This document shows positions 4,169 through 64,000 of a stretch of 64,000 nt of DNA, piece by piece. Source of the stretch: Corynebacterium frankenforstense DSM 45800 (lineage in GTDB: Bacteria; Actinomycetota; Actinomycetes; Mycobacteriales; Mycobacteriaceae); assembly GCF_001941485.1 (NCBI RefSeq), contig NZ_CP009247.1, forward strand, positions 682,001 through 746,000. Direction: 5' to 3'. The notes under the pieces are model-generated. The model saw only the letters and a list, made by a program, of their open reading frames with translations. It was not told the DNA's origin and searched no databases. A program made the position numbers and the translations under genes. Position 1 is the stretch's first letter. Each line of letters begins with the position of its first letter.

Positions 4169-6013
4169 TTGCGGGAGAAACTCGCCTCCCTGCGCGCCAC
4201 GGTCGCCGAGTCGTGGCGCACCTCGCTGCAGGTCCGCGTCATCGGCTCCATCGTGGTCGCCACGACCGTGGTGATGATCGTGCTCGGTCTGTCCATGGTC
4301 TCCGTGGTCACCCAGCAGCTGGTCGACGCGAAGATCGACACGGCCAACTCGGACATCGACCGCGCCCGCCTCGCCGTCGAGGAGCAGATCTCGGCCACCG
4401 GCGCGAGCAGCTCGGTGCAGTCGCGGCTGAACTCCGCGCGCGCCGCGCTGACCAACCGCGCCTCCCAGGACGAGCCGGCCGCCCTCTACGAACCGGTGCT
4501 GCTCGTGGCCAACCAGGACGGCACCGTGACGACCTCCCCGGAGGGCTACCGGATCCCGGAACGGCTGCGCTACTACGTCGACCAGAACCAGATCTCCTAC
4601 CAGTTCACCGAGGTCAACCGCTCCGACGGCTCGACCTACTCGGCCCTGGTCATCGGCACGCCCACCGACGCCGACATCCCGGGCCTGCAGGTCTACCTGG
4701 TGATGAGCATGGAGAACGACCAGGAGACGATGGCGCTGATGCGCGGGCTGATCTCCGCGGCCGCCGTGGTGCTCATCGTCCTGCTCGTCGGCATCGCCTG
4801 GCTGCTCGCCCAGCAGGTGATCACCCCGGTCCGCTCGGCCAGCCGCATCGCCGAGCGTCTGGCCGCCGGCCACCTGCGCGAGCGCATGTCGGTCGAGGGC
4901 GAGGACGAGATGGCCCGCCTGGCCATGAGCTTCAACTCCATGGCCGAGTCGCTGTCGAAGCAGATCCGCCAGCTCAAGGAGTACGGCGACCTGCAGCGCC
5001 AGTTCACCTCGGACGTCTCCCACGAGCTGCGCACCCCGTTGACCACCGTGCGCATGGCCGCGGACATGATCGCCATGCACAACGACGAGTTCAACCCGGC
5101 GACCAAGCGCGCCTCCGAGCTTTTGACCGGCGAGCTCGACCGCTTCGAGGACCTGCTCTCCGACCTGCTGGAGATCTCGCGCCACGACGCCGGCGTGGCC
5201 GACCTCAACGAGTCGCTCTTCGACATCCGCATGAGCGTCGACGAGGCCGTCCGCCAGGTCGAGCCCATCGCCGAGCAGGTCGGCACCGAGATCCGCCTGC
5301 TCGGCCCCGCCGAGCCGATCCGCGTCACGGGCGACTCGCGCCGCGTCGAGCGCATCCTGCGCAACCTGCTGGCCAACGCCGTGGACCACTCCGAGTCCCA
5401 GCCGGTCGAGGTCGACTGGGCCGCCAACGACGAGGCGCTCGCGGTCACCGTCACCGACCACGGTGTGGGCCTGAAGGAGGGCCAGGAGGAGCTGGTGTTC
5501 AACCGCTTCTGGCGCGCGGACCCCTCGCGCGTGCGCCACTCGGGCGGCACCGGCCTCGGCCTGGCCATCGCCCAGGAGGACGCCCACCTGCACGGCGGGC
5601 ACATCGACGCCGCCGGCACCGAGGGCGTGGGCTCCCAGTTCCGCCTCGTGCTGCCGCTGACCCCGCTGGCCGAGTACACCGAGGACCCGCTGCCGCTCAT
5701 CGCCCCCGGCTCCTGCGGGCGGCCCGCCGAAGAGATTGACGACGCCGCGTCGGGCACCGTCGCGGTCGCCGCGCCGTCGGGCGCGCAGGCGCCGGCGGCG
5801 CCCGCGCCGGAAACGCCGGATACGCCGGATATGCCGGAGGCTCCGGAAGCGCCGGCGCCCACCGCCGAGGAGCGCGCCGAGCGCACCGTGGACCCGGAGC
5901 GGGACACGCCCGCCTCCGCCGGGCGAGACGCCCAGCGGGGCGCCGCCGCCCCGGGCGAAACGGAACCGGAGACGCCGGCGGGCGGGGCGTCGGAAAGCAA
6001 CGAGGAGGACTGA
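4169..6013 (+). CDS. mtrB: Sensor histidine kinase MtrB
   Basis: 614 residues. TM1 is at about 24-46 and TM2 at about 192-215, with an extracytoplasmic sensor between them. HAMP follows (216-270), then HisKA with phospho-acceptor His285 (VSHELRTPL) and the HATPase domain with the N, G1 (DHGVGL) and G2 (GTGLGLAI) boxes, to about 505. The remaining ~105 residues are a disordered Ala/Pro/Glu tail much longer than the catalytic core needs. The start is the TTG at 4169, 10 nt after GGGGAG. The stop TGA is directly followed by the lpqB GTG, so MtrB and LpqB are translationally coupled. Two copies of the dispersed 12-bp motif (5734, 5987) fall in the tail. Confidence 0.95.
   Translation: MREKLASLRATVAESWRTSLQVRVIGSIVVATTVVMIVLGLSMVSVVTQQLVDAKIDTANSDIDRARLAVEEQISATGASSSVQSRLNSARAALTNRASQDEPAALYEPVLLVANQDGTVTTSPEGYRIPERLRYYVDQNQISYQFTEVNRSDGSTYSALVIGTPTDADIPGLQVYLVMSMENDQETMALMRGLISAAAVVLIVLLVGIAWLLAQQVITPVRSASRIAERLAAGHLRERMSVEGEDEMARLAMSFNSMAESLSKQIRQLKEYGDLQRQFTSDVSHELRTPLTTVRMAADMIAMHNDEFNPATKRASELLTGELDRFEDLLSDLLEISRHDAGVADLNESLFDIRMSVDEAVRQVEPIAEQVGTEIRLLGPAEPIRVTGDSRRVERILRNLLANAVDHSESQPVEVDWAANDEALAVTVTDHGVGLKEGQEELVFNRFWRADPSRVRHSGGTGLGLAIAQEDAHLHGGHIDAAGTEGVGSQFRLVLPLTPLAEYTEDPLPLIAPGSCGRPAEEIDDAASGTVAVAAPSGAQAPAAPAPETPDTPDMPEAPEAPAPTAEERAERTVDPERDTPASAGRDAQRGAAAPGETEPETPAGGASESNEED
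5971..5998 (+). repeat. Stem-loop plus dispersed motif copy in the mtrB tail
   Basis: GACGCC (5971-5976) and GGCGTC (5986-5991) form an inverted repeat whose right arm runs into the motif GCGTCGGAAAGC (5987-5998). It uses the GAA codon, although this genome strongly prefers GAG. Confidence 0.55.
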
Positions 6014-7741: not shown

Positions 7742-7773
7742 CGCCCCGGCTGCGGTAGATTCCGCAGGCGAGG

Positions 7774-9370: not shown

Positions 9371-9781
9371 GTCACCCGGCGCGGTGACACCGGGCGGCGC
9401 CCCGCGGCGCCCGCCGGCACCGCGCCGTGGCCCCACCGGCCGGGGCCCGCCCACCCGGGCGGGTCCCGGCCTTCGTGCGTCCGTACCCCGCCGCGGGCAC
9501 GGCACGCGCCCGACCGCACCCGTCCGCGGGCGCGGCGCCCGCACCCGGCCGCACCCCGCCTGCGCCCCGCCGACGCCGCCCCGGCCGCACCCGGCCGGCA
9601 CGCGCGACGCGTGCGGCGTCGTTAATCTCATGGTCACCGTGCATGAAACCCACAGCCGCCCGTTGTGTGCGCGGGCGGGGCAGCCGTTAGACTCGGCGGA
9701 CGCGGAAGGGCTCGCGCCGCCGCGTGCGTACAATGTTGGGACGCACAACGGAAGATTCCATGTAGCGAAGGACCTGTAGAC
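9371..9781. other. 411-bp non-coding region between hpf and secA
   Basis: It holds a small inverted repeat right after hpf (GTCACC, 6-nt loop, GGTGAC, 9371-9388), a very GC-rich stretch (9400-9600), one copy of the dispersed motif at 9616-9627 with a flanking GACGC/GCGTC inverted repeat (9606-9620), and the likely secA promoter. Open frames here have no ribosome sites and look like composition artefacts. Confidence 0.7.
9729..9734 (+). promoter_or_regulatory. Probable -10 of the secA promoter
   Basis: TACAAT at 9729-9734 matches the SigA -10 consensus and lies 48 bp upstream of the secA GTG. No good -35 is visible at 16-18 bp, which is common in corynebacterial promoters. Confidence 0.5.
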
Positions 9782-12432: not shown

Positions 12433-13122
12433 TCAGCCGACGCGCAACACGTCGAGGCGCCCACCGTCGAGGCAGGCGACGAAGGCGTGCACACGCCCGT
12501 CGACGCGGCAGGAGCCGAAGACCTCCACGCGCCCGTCGATTTCCGACGCCCCCGCACCCCGCCCGGGTGCGGGGGCGTCGCCGTCTTCGCGGCCCGGCGT
12601 GCGCGCGTTGGTGCGCCCGTGGCCGGGCGCGGGTGCCGGGCGCAGGTGCAGCGAGAGGACGCGCACCTCCGTGGCGGCGCGGGGTGCGGTGGGCCAGGCG
12701 GCGGCTGCGCCCGGTCCGGTACGGTCCACGCCGGCGCGTCCCGTGCGGCGGGCGGCGGCGCGTTCGGCGCGGCGGGCGGCGGCGTGCAGGCGCACCTGGC
12801 GGCCGTAGGCGGCCGATTCCAGGGCCCGCGGCCCGCACACCCCGAAGATGACGTGCAGGGCGCGGGTGACGCGTGCCAGGGCCAGGCGGCGCGGGGCGGT
12901 GGGCCCCGGTCTGCCGCGCACGGCCTTCGGCCGGTGCCGCCCCGAGGAGCCGGGCCCGCCCCGGTCCCCGTCGGGGGAGCGGCCGCCGTCGGGAGGGTGG
13001 ACCCCGTCGGTCTCGCGGGCGGCGCGGGGCCCGGGTGGCCGGGGCGGGGCCGCTTGCGGGTCGAGCATCATGAGCACGGCGGTGCCCGGCAGGGGCACCA
13101 GCGCGCCGGTGTCGGCGGACAT
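12433..13122 (-). CDS. DUF6459 / Rv3235-family protein
   Basis: 229 residues, convergent with secA and 44 bp from its stop. Conserved blocks are the helix ALARVTRALHVIFGVCGPRALESAAYG and the C-terminal strand-rich segment VEVFGSCRVDGRVHAFVACLDG; the segments between are Arg/Pro/Gly-rich and probably disordered. The function is unknown, but homologues sit next to secA in many actinobacteria. The ATG at 13122 follows GAGGAG by about 10 nt. The linker before the last domain contains a 15-bp perfect hairpin fused to one copy of the dispersed motif (12538-12579). Confidence 0.8.
   Translation of the reverse strand: MSADTGALVPLPGTAVLMMLDPQAAPPRPPGPRAARETDGVHPPDGGRSPDGDRGGPGSSGRHRPKAVRGRPGPTAPRRLALARVTRALHVIFGVCGPRALESAAYGRQVRLHAAARRAERAAARRTGRAGVDRTGPGAAAAWPTAPRAATEVRVLSLHLRPAPAPGHGRTNARTPGREDGDAPAPGRGAGASEIDGRVEVFGSCRVDGRVHAFVACLDGGRLDVLRVG
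12538..12579 (-). repeat. Stem-loop plus dispersed motif, inside the DUF6459 gene
   Basis: Arms GACGCCCCCGCACCC (12545-12559) and GGGTGCGGGGGCGTC (12565-12579) pair perfectly over 15 bp with a 5-nt loop. On the minus strand the stem runs straight into the motif tail, giving GCGTCGGAAATC at 12549-12538. It lies about 150-190 bp beyond the secA stop and could also terminate secA transcription. Confidence 0.65.
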
Positions 13123-16551: not shown

Positions 16552-17226
16552 ATGTGCGGAAGGTTCGTCCTGTTCACCACCGGGGAGCGCCTCCTCGACG
16601 CCGTCGGCACCCTGCCGGGCGTCACCGAGGTGCGTGCGCCGCGCGACACCCCGCCGGCGCGCTACAACATCGCCCCGACCCAGATCGCCCCCGTCGTCCG
16701 CCTCGGCGGCGAGGCCCACTCCGAGGCGCTGGTGGAGCCGGCGCGCTGGGGCCTGCTGCCGCACTGGAAGCGCGACGAGAAGGGCCCGACCCTGTTCAAC
16801 GCCCGCTCCGAGACCGTCGCCGAGAAGCCCTCCTTCCGCGACGCCTTCGCCAAGCGCCGCTGCGTGATCCCCATGGACGGCTACTACGAGTGGCACGAGA
16901 AGGTGCCGCACTTCATCAGCCGCGACGACGGCGGGCTGCTGTGGGCCGCCGGGCTGTGGGACACCGGCCTGGACCAGCTGTCCTGCACCATCGTGACCAC
17001 CGCCTCCGCCGAGCCGTTGGAGTGGCTGCACGACCGCATGCCGTTGCTTCTCGACGCTGCGTCCGCCGCCGCCTGGTGCACCGGCTCGGCCGGGTCCGCC
17101 ACGGAGATGCTGGCGCCTGCGGCGCCCACGCTGCGCGCGCACCTCGGCGCCCGCCCGGTGCGACGCGACGTCGGCAATGTGGCCAACGACTTTCCCGGGC
17201 TCCTCGACACCGTCGGGGCGGAGTAG
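16552..17226 (+). CDS. SRAP domain protein (HMCES/YedK family)
   Basis: 224 residues. Cys2 of MCGRF is the family nucleophile that forms a thiazolidine DNA-protein crosslink with abasic sites in single-stranded DNA, shielding them during replication. Other SRAP hallmarks are [37 protein letters not shown] (catalytic Glu) and the LHDRMP histidine. It is divergent from aroA with overlapping promoters. One dispersed-motif copy (17168-17179) lies in the C-terminal codons. Confidence 0.93.
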
Positions 17227-19858: not shown

Positions 19859-19914
19859 ACGTCGTCAATTGAACGGGAGACCCCCGCACACCCGGGAACG
19901 GGTGCGCGGGGGTC
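19859..19914. terminator. Dispersed motif followed by a bidirectional terminator hairpin
   Basis: ACGTCGTCAATT (19859-19870) is a copy of the dispersed motif. The hairpin GACCCCCGCACACCCG (19879-19894), loop GGAA, CGGGTGCGCGGGGGTC (19899-19914) has 15 of 16 pairs and separates two convergent genes. Confidence 0.75.
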
Positions 19915-23933: not shown

Positions 23934-24886
23934 CGCCGCGCAACGACCCCGGCCGGGACGGCACGGTCCACGACATCTCCGAGGCGCGCGGCGCCCGGCG
24001 GACCGACGCAGAGATTGACGACGCCCGCGATGCGGGCGCGGACCAGGTCCCCGCGGCGGCTGCGGCGGGGGTGCCCGCCCACGTGGCGGCGGCCTTCCAG
24101 GCCGACGACCGGCAGCCCGCCGTGCCGCTGGGCGCGGCCTGGGACAACGGCTGGCGTCTGGGCACCGTCGCGCTCTCGCGCGCCGTCGGTCCGCACACCA
24201 CCTGGTCGGCGCGGGTACGCGAACGCGTGGAGGTCGACGGGCTGCGCGTGGTGCGTCCGGTGCGCGCCACCGACGGCCGCTTCCTCGCCGCCGGCTGGCG
24301 GGCCAGTCAGTTCGTCGAGGGGGAGCCGGGCGCGCGCGTCGACGAGACGGCCGCGGCCGCCCTGCGCCTCGAGGCCGCGCTCGTCGCGGGCCTCGACGAC
24401 GGCCTGCCGCTGCCCGAGTCGGACCCCGAGGACGTCTTCTGCGCCGCCGACCGCGCGGCCTGGTCGACCCACGAGCCGCGGGTGCTCGCCGGCGTCGAGG
24501 ACGGCCTGCACCGCGACCTGCTGCTCAAGCTGCGCGCCGCGATGGGGCCCCTGGCGGGCCCGGCGGTGCCCTGCCACGCGGACATGCTGGCCACCACCGT
24601 CTACGCGCCGGGCAACCCGCCGGCGCTGACCGACCTGGTCGGCGTGATGCACCCGCGCGGCTACACCGCCGCGCAGGTCATCGTCGACGGCCTGCTCGCC
24701 GGCGCGGTCGACGCCGGGGTGATCGCCCGCTTCCGCCACGTGCCGGATCTCCACCAGCTGTTGGTGCGCGCCGCGGCCTACCGCGTGTGGGTGCACGTGC
24801 TGCTCAGCAGACCCGAGCCCGCCGCCTCCGCGGCCCTGGCGGAGGTCGTCGATCTGCTCCTGTCGCGCCCGGGTGGCACGCTGTGA
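23930..24886 (+). CDS. TIGR02569 family protein
   Basis: 318 residues; the GTG at 23930 overlaps the DUF3152 stop (GTGA). The recognisable core is PAHVAAAFQ, WDNGWRLGTVALSR, a protein-kinase-like aminoglycoside-phosphotransferase-style lobe (CHADMLATTVY, LTDLVGVMHPRGYTAAQVIVDG), and a helical C-terminus. The family is actinobacteria-specific and uncharacterised; the HADML and D-V-x-H blocks resemble a degenerate APH fold, so catalytic activity is uncertain. It lies immediately upstream of adnA, as in mycobacteria. A dispersed-motif copy with a GCCCGC-GAT-GCGGGC hairpin (24013-24037) sits in the variable N-terminus. Confidence 0.75.
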   Translation: MTPRNDPGRDGTVHDISEARGARRTDAEIDDARDAGADQVPAAAAAGVPAHVAAAFQADDRQPAVPLGAAWDNGWRLGTVALSRAVGPHTTWSARVRERVEVDGLRVVRPVRATDGRFLAAGWRASQFVEGEPGARVDETAAAALRLEAALVAGLDDGLPLPESDPEDVFCAADRAAWSTHEPRVLAGVEDGLHRDLLLKLRAAMGPLAGPAVPCHADMLATTVYAPGNPPALTDLVGVMHPRGYTAAQVIVDGLLAGAVDAGVIARFRHVPDLHQLLVRAAAYRVWVHVLLSRPEPAASAALAEVVDLLLSRPGGTL

Positions 24887-28177: not shown

Positions 28178-31100
28178 GTCCAGCACGCAGAACCGGATCA
28201 GCCCGAAGACCCTGGCCGCCCTGCTCGGCCAGCCCTCGCCCACGCCCCAGCAGGCCGCGGTGACCGGCGCGGGCCCCGGCCCGCTGCTCGTCGTCGCCGG
28301 CGCCGGTGCGGGCAAGACGGCCACCATGGCCGCCCGTGTCGTCTGGCTGGTGGCCAACGGCCTGGCCGAACCCGACCAGGTCCTCGGCCTGACCTTCACC
28401 CGCAAGGCCGCCCAGCAGCTCGGCCACAAGATCCGCGGCCAGCTCGCCGAGCTCGCCGGCAGCCCCCGGTTGCGCGAGGTCGACCCGAGCGGGAGGCTCG
28501 CCGACCGGCTGGCCGACGCTGCGCCCACGGCCAGCACCTACGACTCTTTCGCGGGTTCCATCATCCGCGAGTTCGGGCTCCTGCTGCCGGTCGAGCCGAC
28601 CGCGCGCATCATCGGCAAGACGGAATTGTTCACGATCGCCTCGCAGCTCGTCGAGGACTACACCGGGGTGCTCGAGACGACGGTGAGCACCGGTGAGGTC
28701 GTCGAGCGCGTGCTCGCCCTCAACGCCGAGATGGACAACCACCAGGCGGACCCGGAGGACGTCGCGGACGAGGCGCGCGCCTTCATCGCCAACGTCACCG
28801 ACCTGCCCAAGGCCCCGCGCCAGCGCGACGCGTTGAACAAGGACATGCAGAAGTGGGTCGACGCCCAGCGCATGCGCATCGACTTGCTGCCGCTGGTGAC
28901 CGCACTGCGCGCCGAGCTGCGCGAGCGCTCGCTGACGACCTTCCCGCAGCAGATGAGCCAGGCGGCGCGCCTGGCGGCCACCCGCCCGAAGGTCCGCGCC
29001 GCGTTGCGCCGCCGCTACCGGGTGGTCATGCTCGACGAGTACCAGGACACCTCGCACTCCCAGCGCGTGCTGCTGCGCTCCCTCTTCGGCGCCGACCCGG
29101 CCGCGGAGCCCGCCCAGGCGCCCGTTCCCGTCACAGGCCCGGCCGATGCCCCAGTCGCGGGTCCGGACGCCACCGCGCCCGACGCCTCCTCGCCGGCCCC
29201 GGCCCCGCAGGCCCCGGCGCTGACCGTCGACGCCGTCGGCGACCCGATGCAGGCCATCTACGGCTGGCGCGGCGCGACCGCCGCCAACCTGCTGGCCTTC
29301 CGCGAGGACTTCCCCGAGGGCACCCGGCCCGCCCCGAAGGCCGAGCTGACCGTCAGCTTCCGCAACCCCGCCCGCGTGCTCGCCGCCGCCAACGCCGTCT
29401 CCGACAGCGTGCTCGGCTCCGCCGAGGCCACCGAGCGCCCCGTCGCCCCGCTCGAGCCCTTCGGCGACGAGCCCGGCGGGGTGTCCCTGGGCTGGTACGA
29501 GACGATCGCCGAGGAGCGCGCCGCCGTCGCGGAGAAGCTCGCCGCGCACTACCGCGCCGCAGCCGACGCCAGCGAGCGGTTCACCGGCGCGGTGCTCGTG
29601 CGCAAGAACGCCCAGGCCGCGCCCATCGCCGCCGAGCTGGAGGCGCGCGGGGTGCCCGTGGAGATCGTCGGCGTGGGCGGGCTTCTCGACGTCCCGGAGG
29701 TCGCCGACGTCGTCGCCGTGGCGACGATGCTGGTGCGCCCCGAGGACAACGCCGCGGCCCTGCGCGTGCTCTCCGGGCCGATGGTCGGGCTCTCCGTCAA
29801 GGACCTGCAGGCCCTCGACGGCCGCGCCCGCCAGCTGGCGCGGCGCTCCCGGCCGGCCCCGGCGGGGGAGGAGTCCACGGAGACCGCCGGGACCCCGGAC
29901 GTCACTGGTACCTCGGACGCCGGCGGGACCGGTACCTCGGACGTCGCCGCGGCCGCCACCGGGGACTCCACGACGCCTGCCTCGAGCGCGGCCTGGGCCG
30001 ACCTGCTCGCCGAGATCGACGAGGCGCTGCCCCCGGACGCCGAGCAGGTCGTCGGCCTGGCCGACGCCGTCGCCGACCTCGGCGAGGGCGCGGGGCTCAG
30101 CGAGGAGGGCGCCCGGCGGCTCGCCCGGCTCTCCGCCACCCTGCGCGCCCTGCGCACCCGCTCGCTGGGCAAGCCCCTGCCGGAGCTCTTCGCCGACATC
30201 GAGTCCGCCACCGGGGTGCGCACCGAGGCGCTCGCCCGCGAGGACCCGGGTGCCGACGGCGCGCCGGGCACCGCCCACCTCGACCGGCTCGGCGCGGAGG
30301 TCGCCGCCTTCGCCGCCGTGCCCGGGGCCACCCTGCCCCGCCTGCTGGACTACTTCCGGCTCGCCCGCGACCACGAGGCCGGCCTGGCGCCGGGCGAGGT
30401 CTCCGTGCGCGCCGACCGCGTCCAGATCCTCACCGTGCACAAGGCTAAGGGACTGGAGTGGCGCCACGTCGCCGTGGTGCACGCCGACGACCGCACGTGG
30501 AAGGCGACCCCGGAGACCTTCCTGACCCGCCCGCACACCCTGCCCCCGGAGCTGCGCGGCGACGCCGACGAGACCGTCCAGTTCGCCCCGGACGCCGAGA
30601 ACCGCAAGGAGTTCGAGACCGGCGCGAAGGCCTTCATCGAGGAGGTGCGCGCCACCGAGGCCCAGGAGGCGACCCGCCTGTTCTACGTCGCGGTCACCCG
30701 CGCCGAGCGCACGCTGACGGTCACCGGCTCCGCGCTCAACGACACCGCGAGCAGGCCCGCGGCCGCCTACGGGATGCTCGAGCTGCTCGCCGGGCACGCC
30801 CCCGACGCCGTCGAGACCTGGTTCGACCCGGCCGCGGAACCCGCCGGGGACACCGACGGCACCGCTGCAGACACCGACGGCGCCGCCGCAGCCACCGGGG
30901 ACGCCGCCGCGGCGCAGGCCGCGGCGAACCGCACCACGGCGACGCAGGAGGCGACGCCGGGCGACGGGACGTCGGCAAGCGAGGCCCCGGCGCTCTTCCC
31001 GGCCGTCGACGCCGACGCCGCCGTGCGCGCCGGCGCCGAGCAGGTGCGCGCCGCCCGCGGGGAGCTGCCCGCGGCCGCCGACGACGAGCTGTCGACCCAG

Positions 31101-37465: not shown

Positions 37466-38968
37466 CTACTCGGCGGGCTTGTCGCCCTTGCCATCCGCGC
37501 CGTCCGCACCGTCGCCGTTGTCGCTCTTGCCGTTCGAGTCGTCCTCGTCGGCGCCGTCACCGTCGGAGGTGTTCCCGTCGGCGTCGGCCTCGCCGCGGTT
37601 CTTCTCCTCCTCCTCTGCCAGCCGGCGCTCGAGCTCCTCGATCTCGCTGATCGGGTCGAAGCCCTCGGCGCCGCTGTCGTCGAGCAGGCCGTCGATGAAC
37701 TCCGCGGAGTTGTCCAGGTCCTCGGCCGTCGGCAGGAAGTCGGGGTGGTTCCACACGGCGTCGCGGCGCTCGACGCCCACGGCGACCTCCGCGCGGCGCC
37801 ACAGCTCCATGGCCTCGGAGACCTTCGGCGCGCCGAACTCGATGCCGACGACCTTGGCGAAGGCCTTCTCCGCCGAGCCACCGGTGGCCCGGCGGCGGCG
37901 CCACGCCTCGTTCATCGCGGCCGTCGAGGGGATGCGCTCGCCCATGGCGTTGGTGACCACCTGCTCGACCCAGCCCTCGACCAGGGCCAGCAGCGTCTCC
38001 AGCCGCGAGACCGCCGCGGCGTTGCGCGAGCTGATGCGCGGGGAGAGGTCCATGTTCTGCAGCTGCTGCATGGCCTCCTGGATGGCCTGCGGGTCGCCGG
38101 ACTCCAGGTTCAGCCCGCGGGCGGCCTCCTCGATGTGGGAGGTGTCGATGACCAGGCCGGCGGCGTACTCCTCGACGGAGGAGACCAGCCGCTCGACCAG
38201 CCAGGGCACGTGGCGGAAGAGGCGCTGGCGGGCGGCCTCGCGCGCGGCGATGTAGACGAGCACCTCCTGGGCGGGCACGTCCAGGTCGGCGGCGATGGCG
38301 TGGATGTTGCCCGGCAGCAGCGCGGTGGTGCCCTCCGGTGCGACGGGCAGGCCGAGGTCCGAGCCGGTCAGCGCCTGGCCGGCGAGCTCGCCGAGGGCGT
38401 GGCCGAGCTGCATGCCGAAGTTCATCCCGGACATCTGCTGCATCATCTGCGCCATCGGCCCGATCATCTGGCGGGCCTCCTCGGGCAGGGACTCCAGCTG
38501 GGCCTCGTTCATGTGCTCGGCGACCGGGGTGACCATGCGCTTCCACATCGGCAGGGTGCCCTCGAGCCAGTTCTCGGGCGTCCACGCCACGGGGCGGGAA
38601 CCGGAGGCCGGGAGCGTCGTGGCGTCGTCAAGCCACAGCTCGGCCAGCCGCACGGACTCCTCGACGGCCGTGGTGTCCTGCTCGCGCACGCCGCCGGACT
38701 TGCCGGTCAGCTCCTGGCGGGCGATGCGCATGGCCATCTCGTAGTTGACGGGGCCGGCGCCCTCCGGCGAGTTCATCGACGAGCCCATCCCGGAGAGCAT
38801 CTGCCCGAACTGGTTGAGGATGTCGCCTAAACCGCCCGCACCGGCGCCGCCCGCCCCGGCGCCGGGGAAGAAGGCGCCGAAGGGGTTCTGGTCGCCGCGC
38901 TTGTCGCGGTCGTTGTCGTCGTCATCGTCGTTGTTGCCGAAGGTAAAACCGAATCCGCCTGAAGTCAT
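37466..38968 (-). CDS. DUF2342 zinc-dependent metalloprotease-like protein (Rv3195 family)
   Basis: 500 residues. The N-terminus is Gly/Asn/Asp-rich (FGFTFGNNDDDDDN). The central helical domain carries the family blocks PVNYEMAMRIARQEL, AELWLDDATTLP, ENWLEGTLPMWKRMV, LGHALGELAGQALTGSDLGLP, EVLVYIAAREAARQRLFRHVPWL and LALVEGWVEQVV. The family (TIGR03624) has a weak zincin-like fold; its activity is unproven. The C-terminal ~90 residues are an acidic Asp/Gly/Asn-rich tail. The start ATG has little ribosome-site signal. The gene is divergent from ylbL, as in mycobacteria. Confidence 0.85.
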   Translation of the reverse strand: MTSGGFGFTFGNNDDDDDNDRDKRGDQNPFGAFFPGAGAGGAGAGGLGDILNQFGQMLSGMGSSMNSPEGAGPVNYEMAMRIARQELTGKSGGVREQDTTAVEESVRLAELWLDDATTLPASGSRPVAWTPENWLEGTLPMWKRMVTPVAEHMNEAQLESLPEEARQMIGPMAQMMQQMSGMNFGMQLGHALGELAGQALTGSDLGLPVAPEGTTALLPGNIHAIAADLDVPAQEVLVYIAAREAARQRLFRHVPWLVERLVSSVEEYAAGLVIDTSHIEEAARGLNLESGDPQAIQEAMQQLQNMDLSPRISSRNAAAVSRLETLLALVEGWVEQVVTNAMGERIPSTAAMNEAWRRRRATGGSAEKAFAKVVGIEFGAPKVSEAMELWRRAEVAVGVERRDAVWNHPDFLPTAEDLDNSAEFIDGLLDDSGAEGFDPISEIEELERRLAEEEEKNRGEADADGNTSDGDGADEDDSNGKSDNGDGADGADGKGDKPAE

Positions 38969-40115: not shown

Positions 40116-40838
40116 CTACCTGCGCGCGGCGGTGGCCGACTCGCTCGGCTCGCTGCTCGACGCCGCGCCGGTCTCGGACCCGCGGTCGTCGCCGCGGTCG
40201 CGCTCGCTCGGCTCGCGGTCACCGGAGCGGTCGGGGTGCTCCGGGGCGGTCCAGTCCTCCGGCGGCTCGGCCAGGCCGAGCTCGTAGATGCGGTCCTCGG
40301 GGTCGATCTGGTCGGTCGAGGCCATCTGCTGGACCACGAGGCCGCGCTCGTTGTCCACCACGGTCAGGATCGCGGTGTTGCCCAGCGTGGACCAGCCGAC
40401 GACGCGGTCCTTCTTGTCCTCGACCACGCGCGAGCTGCGCAGCTCGGTGAGCACCTGGGTCGTCGAGGCGGCCTTCGACTCCGAGGCGAAGAACTGGAAC
40501 TGGCCGACCTCGCTGCCCGAGCACTCCACGGAGTCCTCCAGCCCGTTGGGCGTGCAAGAGTCGAACTGGTCGAACAGCTCGTCGGGCACCAGGCCGGAGA
40601 ACCGCTCACGGGTCTTGGCCAGCTCGCGCTCCTCCTCGCTGGCGGTGGTGCTCGCGCTGCTCGACTCGGAGGTGTCCGTGGTCTCCTCGGGCACGCTTTC
40701 CGACGTCGCGCTGGTCTCCGTGGCCGGTTCCGGCTCGGCGTCGTCGGTGCCGCACGCGGTGAGCGTGAGCGTCAGCGCGGCCGCGGCCGCCAGAGGCAGG
40801 CCTCGGCGGACGAGGCGGAGGCGGGCGTTAGCGGTCAC
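40116..40838 (-). CDS. Secreted lipoprotein of unknown function
   Basis: 240 residues. The signal peptide ends in the lipobox LTAC (Cys29), followed by a Ser/Thr/Glu-rich linker and a globular part with two cysteines (DSCTPNGLEDSVECSG) that may form a disulfide, then a highly charged C-terminal tail (RSGDREPSERDRGDDR). I do not recognise the domain. It is convergent with the YlbL gene (11 bp apart) with no clear terminator between. The PPA1309 gene lies upstream on the same strand. A dispersed-motif copy (40695-40706) falls in the linker. Confidence 0.75.
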   Translation of the reverse strand: MTANARLRLVRRGLPLAAAAALTLTLTACGTDDAEPEPATETSATSESVPEETTDTSESSSASTTASEEERELAKTRERFSGLVPDELFDQFDSCTPNGLEDSVECSGSEVGQFQFFASESKAASTTQVLTELRSSRVVEDKKDRVVGWSTLGNTAILTVVDNERGLVVQQMASTDQIDPEDRIYELGLAEPPEDWTAPEHPDRSGDREPSERDRGDDRGSETGAASSSEPSESATAARR

Positions 40839-41458: not shown

Positions 41459-41786
41459 TTCTTCTGTGCCTTCCTCTCGGTTCTCGCTCCCCGTGTCTCT
41501 GCCCCATATTGTGCCCCGGGCGCGGCCGGCACCGGGGCGCGGGCGCCACGCGCCGCGCCGCACACGCCGGCGACGGCGGGCGGCGCGGCGTCGGAAAGCG
41601 ACGCACCACGCACCACACGCCGCACACGCCGGCGGTCGGGGCAGTGGCGCACGGCGTCGGAAAGCGAGCTGAACGGGACGGTGCATTTGGCTTGGAGTCC
41701 CGTTAAATTCGTATGGTGGAACGTACACCCGTCTGCGGGCGGGAAGTACCGCTTGTTACCGCCAACGCAACACTTGAGGAGACGTC
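41459..41786. other. 328-bp divergent spacer with imperfect direct repeats
   Basis: No supported gene. Two imperfect direct repeats of about 62-67 bp carry GCCGCACACGCCGGCG (41557-41572, 41619-41634) and each ends in an exact copy of GCGTCGGAAAGC (41588-41599, 41654-41665). A lower-GC stretch (41685-41785) probably holds the UPF0182 promoter, though no clear -35/-10 pair could be fixed. Confidence 0.75.
41552..41665 (+). repeat. Two stem-loop plus motif units in tandem
   Basis: Unit 1: arms GCCGCGCCGC (41552-41561) and GCGGCGCGGC (41580-41589) lead into the motif at 41588-41599. Unit 2: arms ACGCCG (41626-41631) and CGGCGT (41652-41657) lead into the motif at 41654-41665. Both face the UPF0182 gene. 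Confidence 0.65.
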
Positions 41787-44789: not shown

Positions 44790-44842
44790 GCTTGCCGACG
44801 TCGCGCCCCACGGCGACCGCGCCCGCGGTCACCGTGGGGCGC
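44790..44842 (+). terminator. Dispersed motif abutting the UPF0182 terminator hairpin
   Basis: GCTTGCCGACGT (44790-44801, minus-oriented motif) is followed at once by a long stem, GCGCCCCACGG...CCGTGGGGCGC (44803-44813 with 44832-44842), with an inner GACCGC/GCGGTC stem. TTCGTGTG follows. It is 4 bp after the UPF0182 stop. Confidence 0.8.
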
Positions 44843-49055: not shown

Positions 49056-50201
49056 ATGACGACCTCGCGCTCCGGCGCCGACGGCGCCGTGGCACGCGCC
49101 GTCGGCAAGCGGCCGCAGATCCTGCCGTTCCGCCGCGAGGACCTGGTGGACACCCCCACCGACGAGGAGTACGCGGAGATCATCCGCGGCCACCGGTGGC
49201 TCGGCGGGGAGTCCTGGAAGCTGGTGCTGCGCCGTGTGACGCGCGAGTTCTTCGCCCGCGCGATGATGGACAAGGGCGCGCTGCTGACCTTCTTCTCCCT
49301 GCTCACCTTCGCGCCCACCGTCGTCGGTGCCTACTCGATAGCGACGCTGCTGCTGGCCAACGACACCGCCGCCACCAACAGGCTGATCACCCAGCTCATC
49401 CGCGACTACGTCCCGCCCGAGGCCGAGGAGACCGCGACCGACATCATCCTCGAGATCGTCCAGCAGGCGGGCGACCACGTCTGGGTGCTCGTGGTCAGTA
49501 TCCTCGTCGCCCTGTTCTCCTCCTCGGCCTACGTGCGGGCCTTCGCCCGCAACGCCAACGCGATCTACGGCCGCGAGGAGGGCCGCCACCCGGTGCGCAC
49601 CGTGCTGGCGATGTGGGCGCTGACCTTCGTGGTGGTCCTGGGCGCGGTGCTGCTGGCGGCGAGTCTGCTGCTCAACGAGATCGTCGTGCGTGACGTCTTC
49701 GAGCCCGTCGCCGAGCCGTTGGGCCTCGAGACCGCGGTCGAGTGGCTGGCCGGCGCCGTCATGCCGGTGTGGCGGTGGGTGCGCCTGCCCGTCGCCGTGC
49801 TGCTGGGCATGGTGCTCGTCGCGCTGCTCTACAACTTCACGCCCAACGTGCGCTACCCGCGGTTCCGCTGGCTGAGTGTGGGCACCGTGGTCGCGGTGCT
49901 CGGCGGCGTGCTCGTCTACGTCGGGCTGACGGCCTACCTGCGTGTGTTCACCCGCATGTCCCTGCTCAGCGCCGTCGGCGCGGTGGTGGCCTTCCTCATC
50001 GCCCTGTGGATCTACAACATCGTGCTCATGGTGGGCCTGAGTCTCGACGCCGAGGTCGCCCGCGCCCGGGAGCTCGAGGCCGGCCTGGACTCGGAGGCGG
50101 TGATCCGCGTGCCACCCCGCGGGGAATCGGCGGCGCGGCGCCAACGCGACGTCGGCAAGGAACTGCGCGCGGCCGGCGAGGCCATCGGCCCGGAGGAGTA
50201 G
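49056..50201 (+). CDS. YihY/BrkB family inner membrane protein
   Basis: 381 residues with a six-TM YihY core (for example FFSLLTFAPTVVGAYSIATLLL, WVLVVSILVALFSSSAYVRAFARNANAIYG, LAMWALTFVVVLGAVLLAASLLL, LPVAVLLGMVLVALLYNFTPN split by loops). The block SSSAYVRAFARNANAIY and the LLYNFTPN turn are family hallmarks. The function is unknown; it was once wrongly linked to RNase BN. The ATG is 6 nt after TATCCT (49044-49049), so the mRNA is likely leaderless. Dispersed-motif copies sit in both hydrophilic ends (49099, 50149), the first preceded by an 8-bp perfect stem. Confidence 0.9.
   Translation: MTTSRSGADGAVARAVGKRPQILPFRREDLVDTPTDEEYAEIIRGHRWLGGESWKLVLRRVTREFFARAMMDKGALLTFFSLLTFAPTVVGAYSIATLLLANDTAATNRLITQLIRDYVPPEAEETATDIILEIVQQAGDHVWVLVVSILVALFSSSAYVRAFARNANAIYGREEGRHPVRTVLAMWALTFVVVLGAVLLAASLLLNEIVVRDVFEPVAEPLGLETAVEWLAGAVMPVWRWVRLPVAVLLGMVLVALLYNFTPNVRYPRFRWLSVGTVVAVLGGVLVYVGLTAYLRVFTRMSLLSAVGAVVAFLIALWIYNIVLMVGLSLDAEVARARELEAGLDSEAVIRVPPRGESAARRQRDVGKELRAAGEAIGPEE
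49080..49110 (+). repeat. Stem-loop plus dispersed motif in the 5' codons of the YihY gene
   Basis: GACGGCGC (49080-49087) and GCGCCGTC (49096-49103) pair perfectly; the right arm continues into CCGTCGGCAAGC (49099-49110). This encodes part of the non-conserved N-terminus. Confidence 0.6.
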
Positions 50202-51588: not shown

Positions 51589-52818
51589 GTGAGAATCGAC
51601 GAGGCCGCGGTCCTCGAGGCGGCCGAGACGGGTGCGACCGATGTGGCGGACCTGCTCGAGCGGGCCGCACGCGGCGGCACCCCGCTGTATGACCCGCGGA
51701 CCTGCCGGGCGACCTTCCTCTGGCGGGCGCGCCCCGAGGTGCAGGCGGTCCACCTGCGCGTCAACCGCGTCACCGAGAAGGACGACTTCGAGCGCGGGTT
51801 GATGCGCCGGGTCGGTCAGACCGGCTGGTGGATCCGGACCCTCGAGCTGGCGCCGACGCTGCGCGCCTCCTACGGGTTCGTCGAGTACACCGACCCCGCC
51901 GAGGCGAGGCCGCTCATCCCGGGCGAGGGAATGCCGCCGGTCCTCGCCGACCCGCACGGCGCCGGCCCCGTCATCCCGTATGAGCCGGTGGCGCCCGCAG
52001 CGTCGGCCGGTCGGCCGGGTGCCCGTCCCGCGGTGCGCACCGGACATTCCGTCTTCTCCGGTCCGCTCGCACCCGCGGCCCCGGAGTGGGACGGTCCGGT
52101 CCCGTCCACCCCGGCCACGCACCACCCGGAGGCGGTGCACCCGGCGGCGACCACCGGGGCGTCGGCAATCGAACCCGACGGCGAGATCGCCGGGGTGCCG
52201 CTCTTCCGCCACCACCCGGGCAGCCGGCCCGAGGCGCGGCTGCTCCTCTTCGACGCCGAGGACTGGTTCCTGCGCCTCGACCTGCCGCGCGCCCTGGCCG
52301 TGGCGGGCCTGGACGTCGAGGTGATCGGCGTCGGCCACCGCGACCGGGAGACCCGCATGCGCACGCTGCGCGGCAACACGGACTTCCTCACCGCCGTGCT
52401 CGACGCGACGGTCGCCGACAAGGACCCCGCCGTGCCCCTCATCGTCGCCGGCCAGTCGCTCGGCGGGCTCTCCGCGCTGCTGGCGCTACTCGAACGCCCC
52501 GGTGCGGTCGACGCGGTGATCGCGCAGTCGCCGTCGGTGTGGTGGTGGCCCGGTCGGGCCTGCAGCCCGCGCGACCTCGACGCCCACCGCGTCGACTGGC
52601 TGGCCGCCCGCTTCACCGCCGCCGAACCGCAGACCGCACGGGTGGTGCTCGGCGTGGGCACCAGGGAGGGGCTGATGCTGCCCAAGACGCACACCCTCGC
52701 GCACGTCATGGCGGCGCGCGGCTGGGACGCGCGGGTGCGTGTCTGGGACGGCGGCCACGACCTGGCATGCTGGCGCCACGACCTCATCGACGCGCTGCTG
52801 GAGGTGCTCGACCAATGA
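51589..52818 (+). CDS. Enterochelin/siderophore esterase-like protein (Fes/IroD family)
   Basis: 409 residues. An N-terminal beta-sandwich (TFLWRARPEVQAVHLRVNRVT, the Fes N-domain) precedes a Pro/Ala-rich linker and an alpha/beta hydrolase domain with Ser290 (GQSLGG), SPSVWWWPG and the His of WDGGHDLACWR. Fes enzymes hydrolyse imported ferric triscatecholate siderophores in the cytosol to free the iron. The GTG at 51589 follows AAGGAG by 8 nt. TAGGCT at 51552-51557 may be a -10 or a weak DtxR half site. It overlaps the asparaginase gene by 4 nt. Confidence 0.87.
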   Translation: MRIDEAAVLEAAETGATDVADLLERAARGGTPLYDPRTCRATFLWRARPEVQAVHLRVNRVTEKDDFERGLMRRVGQTGWWIRTLELAPTLRASYGFVEYTDPAEARPLIPGEGMPPVLADPHGAGPVIPYEPVAPAASAGRPGARPAVRTGHSVFSGPLAPAAPEWDGPVPSTPATHHPEAVHPAATTGASAIEPDGEIAGVPLFRHHPGSRPEARLLLFDAEDWFLRLDLPRALAVAGLDVEVIGVGHRDRETRMRTLRGNTDFLTAVLDATVADKDPAVPLIVAGQSLGGLSALLALLERPGAVDAVIAQSPSVWWWPGRACSPRDLDAHRVDWLAARFTAAEPQTARVVLGVGTREGLMLPKTHTLAHVMAARGWDARVRVWDGGHDLACWRHDLIDALLEVLDQ

Positions 52819-53964: not shown

Positions 53965-55128
53965 ATGCGTCCCGCCGTCCGTGCCCTGTCCGCCGCCACC
54001 GCGGCCCTGATCACCGTCGGGGGCCTGCTCCCCACCGCGCAGGCCGCGGAGCAGCCGGGCGCGGTCGAGCAGGCACGGACCGCCCTCGCCGAGCGCGGCG
54101 TTGCCACCGCGCCCCTGGACCCGGCCGTGGCGGCCGCGGTGGACGGTGCCGTCGCCGACGCGCAGGCCGCCGGCGAGCAGGCCACCGCCGGTTTTGACGC
54201 CGCCGCCTCCGATGCGCAGGCCGCCGGCGAGCAGGCACGCGGCGCGATTGACGACGCCGCGGCGGGCGCCGTGGCAGGTATCTCCGACGCCGCCGCGGAC
54301 GCCGGTTTCCCCGGGGTGCCCGCCCCGGGCCTGGCCTACGAGCTGATCCCGGACCCGCACGGCGAGGGCCCGAACTACCACTGGTCCAACGACCCGGTCG
54401 ACCAGGTGCTCGCCGGCAAGCTCCCCGGCTCCGGGCCGGTGCTGCACCGCGCGCCGGGCAGCTACTTCGACGCCGCCCCGGTCCCGCCGGAGGCCGTCGC
54501 CGCGGCGGAGCGCGGCCACGCGCTGATGGGCGCGGGCACCCCGATCTACGTCGGCGACGACTCGATGTGCACCCTGACGGCGGTGGGCACCGACGCGCAG
54601 GGCCGCAAGGTCGGCCTGACCGCCGGGCACTGCGGCGAGGTCGGCGAGCCCGTCTACTCCGCCGACGCGCGGGGCGTGGGCGCGGCCGGCACCGTGGTCG
54701 CCAAGGACCCCGAGTACGACTACGCCGTCGTCGAGCTCGGCTCGAACGCCGAGCTGACCGACAACTACGGCGGGGTCAAGGTCAACGGTGTCGGCGGCAT
54801 GAGCGCGGGCCCGGGCACCCAGCTGTGCAAGCAGGGCGTGGCCACCGGCTACACCTGCGGGATGACCTGGTACGCCCAGCCCGGCTTCGCGATCACCCAG
54901 GTCTGCGCCGGCGCTGGCGACTCCGGCGCCCCGGTGCTCCAGGACGGCCGCGTGGTCGGCTCGGTGACCGGCGGGATGCTGCCCTTCTACGAGATCTCCT
55001 GCCGCACCCCGCTGCAGGGCCCGCTGTTCATGCCGACGCTGGTCAGCCCGATCGCCCCGGCCGTCGACTCGCTCAACCGCACCGACGCCTCGCGCCCCGG
55101 CGCCGGCTTCACCGCCTACCGCCGTTAG
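53965..55128 (+). CDS. Secreted trypsin-like serine protease
   Basis: 387 residues. The signal peptide is residues 1-27 (cleavage after AQA). A helical Ala-rich pro-region contains the duplicated segment DAQAAGEQ (54157-54180, 54208-54231). The chymotrypsin-fold domain starts near 190: His in GLTAGHC, Asp in YDYAVVEL and Ser in GDSGAPV complete the triad, and paired cysteines flank them. It is likely exported and activated by removal of the pro-region. CAGGAG lies 8 nt before the ATG at 53965. It is convergent with hisN. Confidence 0.88.
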   Translation: MRPAVRALSAATAALITVGGLLPTAQAAEQPGAVEQARTALAERGVATAPLDPAVAAAVDGAVADAQAAGEQATAGFDAAASDAQAAGEQARGAIDDAAAGAVAGISDAAADAGFPGVPAPGLAYELIPDPHGEGPNYHWSNDPVDQVLAGKLPGSGPVLHRAPGSYFDAAPVPPEAVAAAERGHALMGAGTPIYVGDDSMCTLTAVGTDAQGRKVGLTAGHCGEVGEPVYSADARGVGAAGTVVAKDPEYDYAVVELGSNAELTDNYGGVKVNGVGGMSAGPGTQLCKQGVATGYTCGMTWYAQPGFAITQVCAGAGDSGAPVLQDGRVVGSVTGGMLPFYEISCRTPLQGPLFMPTLVSPIAPAVDSLNRTDASRPGAGFTAYRR

Positions 55129-55955: not shown

Positions 55956-56876
55956 TCACCGCGCGCCGCGCAGCAGCTCCTCGATCTCATCGACGACGCG
56001 CCGGTTGCCCGCGACGGACCAGACCACGCCGCCGGCCTCGACCTGGCGGGCGGCCCCGCCCACGCCCTCGACGAGGGCCTTGCCCGGCAGCCAGTCCCAG
56101 GCCGGGACCGAGTGCTGTAGCCAGGCACCCACGCGACCCTCGGCCACCCCGGCCAGGTCCACGGAACCGGCGCCCAGCATCCGCAGGGTGGCCGGCGCAC
56201 CGGCCACGGACAGCCAGACGTCGCGCACCGCGGCGTCGGCAAGCCAGGTCGGGTGGATGTAGGTCGCCAGGCTCAGCTCGGCGAGCGGGCGCTCCTCGAG
56301 GCGCGCCAGCGGCTTTCCGTCGCGCACGGGGGCGGTGTCCGGGCCACCGAACCAGGTGTAGCCCATCGCCGGGCGGTGCACTGCACCGAGGATGAGGCGC
56401 TCGGGCTCGTCGGCCGGTCCCTCGACCAGGGCGAGCGCGGAGCAGTAGTAGTCCGATCCGGAGGTGAAGTTGTAGGTGCCGTCGACCGGGTCGATCACCC
56501 AGGTCCGCCCGCTGGTGCCCGTGCGGCTGGCGCCCTCCTCGCCGAGCACGCCGTCTTCGGGGCGCAGCTTCGCCAGTACGCCGGAGACCAGGCGCTCGGC
56601 GGCCCGGTCGGCGTCGGTGACCACGTCGGAGACCGAGGTCTTTCGCTCGGTGGTCACGCCCTGCTCGCGCATGCGCCAGGCCAGGCGTCCCGCATTGAAG
56701 ACCAGGGTCTGGGCCAGGCGCCCGTCGGAGTCGCCGTCGTGGGCGACGGCGAAGGTCGAGACCAGGGCGTCGACCATCTCGGACATGGAGTGCGCGGGGG
56801 AGCCGGCCTGGCCGGCGCCGTTGTCGGAGGGGGTTTCGTGCGAGCTCGTCGGGGACGTGGAAGTCATGCCAGTCAT
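55956..56876 (-). CDS. Inositol monophosphatase family protein
   Basis: 306 residues. The IMPase motifs are [35 protein letters not shown] and the C-terminal [18 protein letters not shown]. It is a second phosphatase of this fold beside hisN; the substrate may be inositol phosphate or another phosphate ester, and redundancy with HisN is possible. About 45 N-terminal residues are Ser/Thr-rich and non-conserved. Two ATGs compete: 56876 (annotated) and 56867, which lies 7 nt after a CACAAT hexamer and may be the true leaderless start. It is divergent from prfB. Confidence 0.85.
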
Positions 56877-59801: not shown

Positions 59802-59838
59802 GCATCGGAAATCGGGCGCGGGGTCCACCCCGCGCCCG
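59802..59838 (+). terminator. Dispersed motif abutting the ftsX terminator hairpin
   Basis: GCATCGGAAATC (59802-59813) is followed directly by CGGGCGCGGGG (59813-59823), loop TCCA, CCCCGCGCCCG (59828-59838), a perfect 11-bp stem with TT after it. TAGACT at 59845-59850 may be the smpB -10. Confidence 0.75.
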
Positions 59839-62454: not shown

Positions 62455-62804
62455 GGGCGCTCCTCACGGTGGGCACGGCGGGCGCCGTCCCCGGGTCGGG
62501 GTCAGTCGTCTCAGGTCGGTGATGGACACCTCGGGCGGACATCCCCGGGGTGGCGTCGGAGGCACCGCCGCGCGGGTGTGTCGGCAGCCACAATATCGCC
62601 CGACGGGTGCGCGCGGGGGAAAAGGGGTCGAAACCCCAGGCGGCGGCCATCCGTGCGGGGGTGGGGTGCGATTGCCGACGTCCCGTCGGGTCCGCGTGCG
62701 CCGTCCCCGTGCGGCCGGGCGGTGCTTGCGGTCGGCGGCCGGGTGGGCGTACAGTTGAATCTCCTGTGGAAGGTGGCACACCTCCCGTCCACAGGCTTCG
62801 ATGA
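62455..62804. other. 350-bp spacer between the AbgT gene and tmRNA
   Basis: No gene is supported. It contains a dispersed-motif copy (62670-62681, minus orientation) that forms CCGACG-TCC-CGTCGG (62675-62689), the tmRNA promoter (62726-62755), and a hairpin in the tmRNA precursor leader (CTGTGGA/TCCACAG around 62764-62794). Confidence 0.7.
62726..62755 (+). promoter_or_regulatory. tmRNA promoter
   Basis: TTGCGG (62726-62731), an 18-bp spacer and TACAGT (62750-62755). It predicts a start near 62762 and a ~43-nt precursor leader that is removed during tmRNA maturation. Confidence 0.6.
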
Positions 62805-63178: not shown

Positions 63179-63181
63179 GCG

Positions 63182-63548: not shown

Positions 63549-64000
63549 ATGGCCAAGATCCGCCACACCCTGACCGCCCTCGTCGCCGGCGCCGCGCTCG
63601 TGCTGACCGGCTGCTCCAGCGACGGTGAGGGCTCCGGCTCCTCCACCTCCGCCGCCGCGGACGGCTCCGCCACCGAGAGCACCGCCGCCGAGTCGGTGAC
63701 CGTGGAGGACAACGAGGGTGAGAAGACCATCGAGAAGCCGATCGAGAGCGTCGCCGTCCTGGACAACCGCTCCTTCGAGATCCTCGACCAGTGGGACGTG
63801 CCGATCACCGTCGCCGCCCGCAAGCTGGTGCCGTCCACCCTTCCGGACCTGAAGAACGACGAGAGCATCCTCGACGTCGGAAACCACAAGGAGCCCGACC
63901 TGGAGCAGATCGTCGCGGGTGACCCGCAGCTGATCGTCTCCGGCCAGCGCTTCCAGAAGTACGACGAGCAGATCGAGCAGATGAACCCCCAGGCCACCCT
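63549..64000 (+). CDS. Iron-siderophore ABC transporter substrate-binding lipoprotein (FecB/FepB type, 3' end outside window)
   Basis: 150 codons are visible. The signal peptide ends in the lipobox LTGC (Cys22), followed by a Ser/Ala-rich linker and the start of a class III periplasmic-binding-protein domain (VTVEDNEGEKTIEKPIESVAVLDNRSFEILDQWDV... in pieces: IEKPIESVAVLDN, EPDLEQIVAGDPQLIVSGQRF). DLEQIVAGDPQLIV is the usual helix-strand of ferric-siderophore binders. AGGAAG lies 8 nt before the ATG. Together with the DtxR-like box and the Fes-like esterase at 51589 it suggests catecholate-type iron acquisition. A motif copy lies at 63874-63885. Confidence 0.88.
   Translation, partial: MAKIRHTLTALVAGAALVLTGCSSDGEGSGSSTSAAADGSATESTAAESVTVEDNEGEKTIEKPIESVAVLDNRSFEILDQWDVPITVAARKLVPSTLPDLKNDESILDVGNHKEPDLEQIVAGDPQLIVSGQRFQKYDEQIEQMNPQAT

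Follow-up and report, generated by a model that had tools for sequence, protein, structure and literature searches.

The window analysed here, a 64-kb stretch of the Corynebacterium frankenforstense DSM 45800 chromosome, carries many copies of a short dispersed word that is real and goes beyond the effects of protein sequence and codon usage. We think it probable, at roughly 0.6, that this word is a putative self tag similar to a DNA uptake sequence, which would be read by a Tad-pilus/ComEA-ComEC uptake system; this reading is drawn from sequence comparison. All 24 of the 12-mers listed in the initial annotation were confirmed at their positions and orientations, 18 as exact fits to RCGTCGKNAANC and six (17168, 19859, 36141, 49099, 50149 and 59802) off by one or two positions. 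Dinucleotide shuffles of the window contain a mean of 0.78 and a maximum of 3 matches to RCGTCGKNAANC versus the 18 observed, so the earlier hand estimate of well under one copy expected by chance was about right, and the refined core CGTCGKMAAKC is present 17 times versus a shuffle mean of 0.30.

The copy GCGTCGTCAATC lies within genes at 5734..5745, 24013..24024 and 54246..54257, each time on the minus strand, and GCGTCGGAAAGC lies at the 3' end of a gene at 5987..5998 (+), within a gene at 37022..37033 (−), and as a pair 66 bp apart in intergenic DNA at 41588..41599 (+, between divergent genes) and 41654..41665 (+). Similarly, ACGTCGGCAAGC occurs in a gene at 30969..30980 (+) and between convergent genes at 44790..44801 (−), and GCGTCGGCAAGC occurs in genes at 35964..35975 (−) and 56233..56244 (+). 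Further motif copies are located in genes at 12538..12549 (−; GCGTCGGAAATC), 38622..38633 (+; GCGTCGTCAAGC), 40695..40706 (−; ACGTCGGAAAGC) and 52159..52170 (+; GCGTCGGCAATC) and between divergent genes at 62670..62681 (−; ACGTCGGCAATC), and two that match RCGTCGKNAANC and fall outside the refined core are GCGTCGTTAATC at 9616..9627 (+, intergenic) and ACGTCGGAAACC at 63874..63885 (+, in a gene). The inexact 12-mers are the variants ACGTCGGCAATG at 17168..17179 (+, in a gene), ACGTCGTCAATT at 19859..19870 (+, intergenic, flanked by convergent genes), ACGTCGGCAAGG at 50149..50160 (+, in a gene) and GCATCGGAAATC at 59802..59813 (+, intergenic, with the CATCG spelling), the weak variant CCGTCGGAAACT at 36141..36152 (+, in a gene), and CCGTCGGCAAGC at 49099..49110 (+, in a gene), a core copy that is counted under the refined core. 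By our own gene calls seven of the 24 are intergenic, as had been claimed.

Genome-wide (2.60 Mb), CGTCGKNAANC occurs 743 times, balanced between the strands (366 forward and 377 reverse), versus 23 copies of the reversed pattern, and the motif density is about one per 3.5 kb. Gene placement and codon shuffles were determined in a sample of 864 kb (33% of the genome, 41 stretches), and copies were found in all 41 stretches. The 733 sampled genes contain 140 coding copies, far above the codon-shuffled controls that the initial annotation had proposed as a refuting test (means of 12.2 for a global synonymous shuffle and 16.8 for a within-gene shuffle). In the same 864 kb the density is 0.67 per kb in intergenic DNA versus 0.19 in genes, 3.6 times higher; all intergenic classes are enriched (divergent 0.78, convergent 0.65, and co-directional 0.78 and 0.46 per kb), and a preference for gene ends is absent. 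Strong conservation covers the core CGTCGKMAAKC, about five bases upstream (the preferred 5' flank is CGCG-R) and one base downstream; weaker preferences of at most 0.5 bit are seen farther upstream at −10, −13 and −17, and no longer homologous copy was found around the core. Motif pairs closer than 55 bp are absent from the sample of this genome, and close pairs in any orientation are not enriched in the samples of other genomes, which speaks against close inverted pairs of the terminator type. Between two genomes that are 77% identical 9 of 11 aligned sites are retained, and between two that are 82% identical 7 of 15 are; in both genome pairs retention exceeds the prediction from sequence identity. 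The proposal that the word is a DNA-level signal is thus supported by the codon shuffles, the intergenic enrichment, the occurrence on both strands and the aligned-site retention. The accompanying remark that copies lie in different reading frames needs correcting, as frame use within genes is not free: 84 of 88 antisense copies share a single frame and, among sense copies, 53 of 54 fall into two. A second frequent word, CACCCCGGAG, is located mainly within genes and appears to be codon-driven.

Most of the Corynebacterium genomes examined contain about a hundred to a thousand motif copies each, and in 185 of 242 one of three spellings is found 80 times or more. The spelling CGTCGKMAAKC reaches at least 80 copies in 167 of the 242, CATCGNMAAGC reaches at least 200 in 14 (373–887 copies each, alongside 7–124 of CGTCGKMAAKC), and a single genome has 750 copies of CGCGRCGTCAWY versus 17 and 29 of the other two. 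The spellings are largely exclusive; 14 genomes hold at least 80 copies of both CGTCGKMAAKC and CATCGNMAAGC, and in 13 of these the counts are unequal by at least 2.3-fold, the near-equal case being G052 (118 and 114). Relatives can differ sharply: G001 has 43 CGTCG and 771 CATCG copies and G219 has 460 and 72, and their TadA proteins are 87% identical. In 25 other actinobacteria the first two spellings together are at most 3.3-fold above control. Of the 242 Corynebacterium genomes, 55 have fewer than 60 copies of each spelling. Low-count genomes, of which the first sampling comprised eight, do not all simply lack a motif, as 14 use CATCGNMAAGC and one uses CGCGRCGTCAWY. Candidate words in G007, G018, G028 and G049 (for example, GGCGTCG) were weak and were not accepted; word refinement hit codon structure in G007, G028, G049 and G206 and remained weak in G018, and no alternative spelling was seen in sampling of G131, G029, G232 and G043.

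Among the options offered by the initial annotation, an uptake-like sequence fits best because of these species dialects, from which we infer a role in uptake. A surface DNA receptor, most likely a part of the Tad (Flp) pilus, would prefer extracellular DNA with the cell's own spelling; the bound DNA would be pulled across the cell envelope, handed via ComEA and ComEC into the cell, and then recombine. Such biased uptake and recombination could multiply copies and keep them genome-wide (molecular drive), and a shift in receptor specificity would lead to replacement of the spelling and hence to dialects. No report of natural transformation or of an uptake sequence in Corynebacterium was among the matches listed in our literature search, and in the accessible portion of a 2025 paper the only families named with uptake signals are the Neisseriaceae and Pasteurellaceae (PMC12616744).

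The Corynebacterium motif resembles the DUS of Neisseriaceae, whose receptor is the minor pilin ComP, in being short, in its very many copies in genes and permissive intergenic DNA, and in having dialects with a common core, which in Neisseriaceae number several, are conserved within species and track phylogeny, according to the part of that study available to us (PMC3630211). It differs in its sequence, in its host, a high-G+C Gram-positive genus, in the lack of enrichment of close pairs (terminators), which are common in the DUS case, and in the pilus genes that accompany it, which are of the Tad and not the type IVa kind; in Corynebacterium both uptake and a receptor are putative. The CGTC common to the Neisseria DUS word and the Corynebacterium motif is, we presume, coincidence. 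The Pasteurellaceae USS, for which the accessible text gives the minor-pilin receptor (PpdA/ComN) as a prediction, is likewise a highly enriched short word with dialects and a less conserved extension, 17 positions when extended there and a one-sided flank here (PMC12616744). Sequence, lineage and pilus type are different. The USS flank is A+T-rich, whereas that of the Corynebacterium motif is G+C-patterned. We know of no dispersed motif in Micrococcus luteus. The Tad/Flp-based transformation of that actinobacterium is comparable in that both genomes carry tad genes together with orthologues of comEA and comEC, and M. luteus has two tad clusters, versus one TadA-type ATPase above cut-off in the Corynebacterium genome; the term "uptake sequence" is absent from the M. 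luteus paper (PMC4322843). Like Chi, KOPS and HIP1 the motif is a short word at high copy number, but it is neither polar nor palindromic. Chi and KOPS are polar, and HIP1 is a palindrome.

The genome studied encodes a Tad locus as well as comEA-comEC. Motif absence is not accounted for by which of these genes a genome has, because ComEC and the Rv3654c-family minor pilin, each present in 241 of 242 genomes, are also found in motif-lacking ones; neither can be the reason for motif presence. TadA scores differ (median minus log10 E values of 44.6 in motif-lacking versus 52.2 in motif-bearing genomes; Mann-Whitney p 2e-15), and ComEC scores do not (p 0.17). Diverged TadA (minus log10 E below 47, a cut-off picked after viewing the scores) is found in 35 of 54 motif-lacking versus 8 of 179 motif-bearing genomes, an association uncorrected for descent. 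The other 19 of the 54 have a normal TadA score, and no clear alternative spelling was seen in the five of these sampled (G206, G131, G029, G232 and G043). Only gappy, unconvincing residue columns of three small pilins separate the dialects, and this test is weak because the alignments contain wrong-frame rows (several for TadE and TadF, including the TadE of the window's own genome); similarly, the TadA tree is only a rough guide because its G237, G049 and G007 rows are short fragments. In M. luteus natural transformation requires the tad genes, and a single fused tadBC does not imply loss of competence, since the transformable M. luteus carries one in its tad-2 cluster, as described in the part of the report accessible to us (PMC4322843).

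Several other explanations of the word were considered. Sites for a chromosome-organising or replication-associated protein (a nucleoid-associated, SMC-loading or segregation factor), several hundred per chromosome, are in our view unlikely. The even spread (dispersion index 0.79 in the sample, an index without a significance value), the intergenic preference, the aligned-site retention and the presence of the motif in most of the genus agree with such sites, but replication polarity, the strand-bias check suggested by the initial annotation, was not seen (104 sampled copies with and 107 against replication in the 864 kb, with ter taken as half the contig), the 55 low-count genomes also count against them, and a spelling swap between relatives such as G001 and G219 would be hard for a protein that keeps about 700 sites. 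It is less probable still that the word marks hotspots of recombination, of the Chi kind or another, for an end-processing machine of the AdnAB type. One copy per 3.5 kb is a Chi-like density, and the window contains what we take, from the initial gene naming, to be adnB, but Chi-type and KOPS-type motifs follow replication orientation in the best studied species, so the observed orientations disfavour a segregation or recombination mark of either type, and dialect replacement also speaks against it. An epigenetic self mark, recognised by a modification or restriction system, would suit a short, partly degenerate word, and enzyme specificity could underlie species-specific spelling; we nonetheless consider it very improbable, as it gives no reason for the strong enrichment, intergenic preference or aligned-site retention, and restriction sites are usually avoided in genomes. 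We give little credence to the idea that the copies are relics of a mobile repeat or belong to a family of elements involved in transcription, such as terminators or promoters: there are many near-identical copies on both strands, but strong conservation stops about five bases upstream of the core with weak preferences to about −17, gene ends are not preferred and close pairs are not enriched, and the sharp core, the lack of longer homology and the site retention disfavour a decaying repeat in particular. Finally, a genome of 72% G+C has many words rich in CG, but an artefact of composition or codon usage is hardly credible and is refuted by the controls, as shuffles, permuted and reversed patterns and codon shuffles all give far too few copies and the G+C ranges of sampled genomes with different spellings overlap (59–72% for CGTCG, 56–65% for CATCG and CGCGRCGTCA).

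Returning to the uptake tag, we put at about even chances the wider proposal, made from the genome comparisons, that Corynebacterium has genus-wide sequence-specific natural transformation with at least three uptake-sequence dialects, whose reader would be a component of a Tad pilus that would span the mycomembrane. If true, uptake sequences would be known from a third family and for the first time from a Gram-positive lineage, in which the same solution would have arisen independently; such convergent evolution with a different pilus would offer a new setting for asking why tags spread. Many species of a large human-associated, animal and industrial genus would be predicted to be competent for DNA uptake, and the species-specific tag would show which species can swap genes and which DNA suits genetic work. 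Should the motif prove to have no role in uptake, one would still have to explain why most species of so well studied a genus carry dialect-forming sites by the hundred.

All 24 near-identical 12-mers that the initial annotation had listed in the window lie at the positions and in the orientations it gave, and the pattern RCGTCGKNAANC fits 18 copies in this 72% G+C DNA where 100 dinucleotide shuffles average 0.78. The genome is a single contig of 2,604,152 bases, whose first genes we take, from their protein starts, to be dnaA, dnaN, recF and gyrB; CGTCGKNAANC occurs 366 times on its forward and 377 times on its reverse strand, and the same pattern reversed, used as control, occurs 12 and 11 times. 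The more detailed measurements were made on an 864-kb sample, 33% of the genome, made up of the window and 40 other stretches of 20 kb each. With both strands pooled, the nine most over-represented 10-mers in it are all spellings of the motif, and among 8-mers and 9-mers codon-like words rank high too.

The core, CGTCGKMAAKC, has 211 copies in this sample. Its positions 1, 2, 4, 5, 7 and 10 are rarely altered (1 to 19 copies in all with a single departure there), position 3 departs in 39 copies, and positions 6, 8, 9 and 11 vary more (37, 202, 35 and 67 copies, respectively). Upstream stand CGCG and then R, with weaker preferences out to about 17 bases. The pair at core positions 6–7 is GA, GC or TC, with TA in 1 of the 211 copies, unlike other genomes of the genus, where TA is common.

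Gene calls made for this analysis (755 genes) cover 88% of the sample. By these calls the intergenic 103 kb hold 69 copies and the genic 761 kb hold 142, where 60 permuted patterns average 0.2 and 4.2 (maxima 1 and 40), respectively. Across 733 coding sequences the motif occurs 54 times in sense and 86 times in antisense orientation, while 40 global synonymous-codon shuffles give means of 10.3 and 1.9 and 40 within-gene shuffles give 12.4 and 4.5; the motif thus exceeds its codon-shuffled controls, as its first description as a DNA-level signal had implied, and its enrichment is not a coding effect. Few frames are used within genes, one of them holding 84 of the 88 antisense genic copies, which probably accounts for the rare ATT and CTT codons noted earlier at these sites. 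Another word, CACCCCGGAG, occurs 63 times in the same sample (5.3 expected), 60 of them within genes, and its abundance is probably codon-driven; its copies in the window are at 1535, 14502, 14571 and 41108 on the + strand and 20479, 25027, 45325, 55703 and 61546 on the − strand. Rfam models place a tRNA gene at 45063–45136 and the tmRNA gene at 62805–63179 of the window.

Motif copies show no polarity: 104 run with replication and 107 against it, taking the contig start as origin and half its length as terminus. Intergenic densities, which rest on 67 of the 69 intergenic copies, are, per kb, 0.78 for divergent neighbours, 0.65 for convergent ones, and 0.78 and 0.46 in the two co-directional classes. 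From one 20-kb stretch to the next the copy number varies with a dispersion index of 0.79, nominally a little more even than a Poisson spread. No two copies lie less than 55 bp apart in the own-genome sample, and such pairs are not enriched in the samples from other genomes. Close pairs in the own-genome sample cluster at 57–73 bp (8 pairs, one at 41588–41665 of the window and seven elsewhere; 1.3 expected for 55–80 bp, a bin picked after the data were seen), and this clustering was not seen in the samples of other species.

Across 242 Corynebacterium genomes CGTCGKMAAKC ranges from 4 to 1119 copies and its reversed control from 1 to 31. Eight low-count genomes were sampled at 100 kb each for unsupervised word counts, and three of them gave a clear alternative spelling, CATCG..AAGC in G106 and G027 and CGCGRCGTCAT in G012. 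When all 242 genomes are counted, CATCGNMAAGC reaches 373 to 887 copies in 14 of them and stays between 8 and 143 in the others, and CGCGRCGTCAWY stands at 750 copies in G012 and no higher than 42 in any other genome. Taking genomes with 80 or more copies of any spelling as motif-bearing, a class that takes in four genomes (G028, G032, G156 and G185) with just 98 to 143 CATCG copies, 185 of the 242 genomes bear the motif, 55 have fewer than 60 of each spelling, and two lie between. Exclusiveness of spellings is not absolute; both of the first two reach at least 80 copies in 14 genomes, in 13 of which they are unequal by at least 2.3-fold, and in G052 they are about equal (118 and 114). Genomes G001 (CATCG) and G219 (CGTCG) are close, with identities over aligned parts of 87% for TadA, 77% for ComEC and 72% for ComEA, and at both the Tad and the comEC locus their spellings are opposite, each genome having two copies of its own spelling and none of the other. 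Two further words recur in single genomes: a long one around GGAGTATACCAGGGGATTTTTGTGTC, possibly a repeat array, dominates the word counts of G029 (stretches L241–L245), with 12–14 occurrences in 100 kb, and CACTCCCGGAA has 7 copies in 120 kb of G005 (L116–L120 and L144).

In five of seven named Corynebacterium genomes, C. urinipleomorphum (493 against 46) among them, the joint pattern CRTCGNMAAKC is 9 to 15 times its reversed control; the counts fall below this range in C. variabile (94 against 52) and in a C. urealyticum assembly (71 against 28). For this pattern, 25 other actinobacterial genomes (16 Rhodococcus, Nocardia, mycobacteria, Gordonia and Tsukamurella, five Pseudonocardiaceae and four others) give 0.4 to 3.3 times the control.

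Site conservation was read in two pairs of Tad loci, a sample of two loci: G194, 77% identical to G005 there, keeps CGTCGNNAAGC at 9 of 11 alignable G005 sites, against a naive expectation of 0.77 to the ninth power, or about 0.10, and G237, 82% identical to G055, keeps it by manual reading at 7 of 15 G055 sites, one with an indel, against a naive 0.17. These counts indicate that sites are both kept and turned over.

In the window genome comEA adjoins comEC, near a gene that is presumably holA. Its Tad locus encodes Ssd/CpaE-like, TadA, two T2SSF-type (one below the Pfam cut-off), DUF4244 (with a Flp-type GLSTIEY site), TadE-like (below the NCBIfam cut-off) and Rv3654c-family TadE-like proteins. 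The best four named matches to this TadA come from Corynebacterium, which, with the occurrence of the motif in named genomes of that genus, places the window genome there. ComEC is found in 241 of the 242 genomes, the Rv3654c-family protein in 241 (232 over its cut-off) and TadA over its cut-off in 235. Median TadA scores (minus log10 E) are 44.6 in motif-lacking and 52.2 in motif-bearing genomes. Scores below 47, a value set after the scores were seen, belong to 35 of the 54 genomes compared that lack the motif and to 8 of the 179 that bear it; nine genomes stay outside this comparison, two because they fall between the classes and seven for want of a usable TadA hit. ComEC scores show no difference between the classes (p 0.17). 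Among 20 Tad loci compared, G055 yielded a single long call, G069 went unparsed and G206 gave an unreliable result. Five from motif-lacking genomes (G007, G018, G049, G065 and G213; L137, L139, L141, L149 and L151) show a single gene of 349–393 residues where 12 motif-bearing loci show two. This gene is of T2SSF size, family models having been applied to the Tad genes of the window genome and to three G007 genes only, and in four of the five loci the predicted TadE-like protein seems to begin at its mature end, without a prepilin-type leader. Reading the single-gene locus as loss of competence is disfavoured, since M. luteus, which can be transformed, carries a fused tadBC within the tad-2 cluster (PMC4322843). 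On a rough 27-row TadA tree the motif-lacking label changes three times and C. variabile groups with G065; the links between Tad and the motif are correlations that shared descent could give.

Searches on Corynebacterium and Actinobacteria in open-licence literature, outside which lie most subscription papers and all preprints, brought up among the matches listed neither an uptake sequence nor natural transformation described for Corynebacterium, and a survey of spaced motifs, in the text available, gives nothing but CRISPR-related patterns for three Corynebacterium species (PMC5217627). An uptake sequence would account for the abundance without polarity, the placement where tolerated, the retention of sites and the replacement of one spelling by another. 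The last is the strongest point in its favour, since a protein that binds the chromosome from within the cell would presumably need several hundred sites to change together. Biased uptake with recombination, by contrast, may rewrite sites as a population process, and dialects of uptake sequences have been described (PMC3630211). Our guess for the receptor, on the model of ComP and of PpdA (PMC12616744), is a Tad minor pilin, and DNA uptake would be the putative function of the motif in these corynebacteria.
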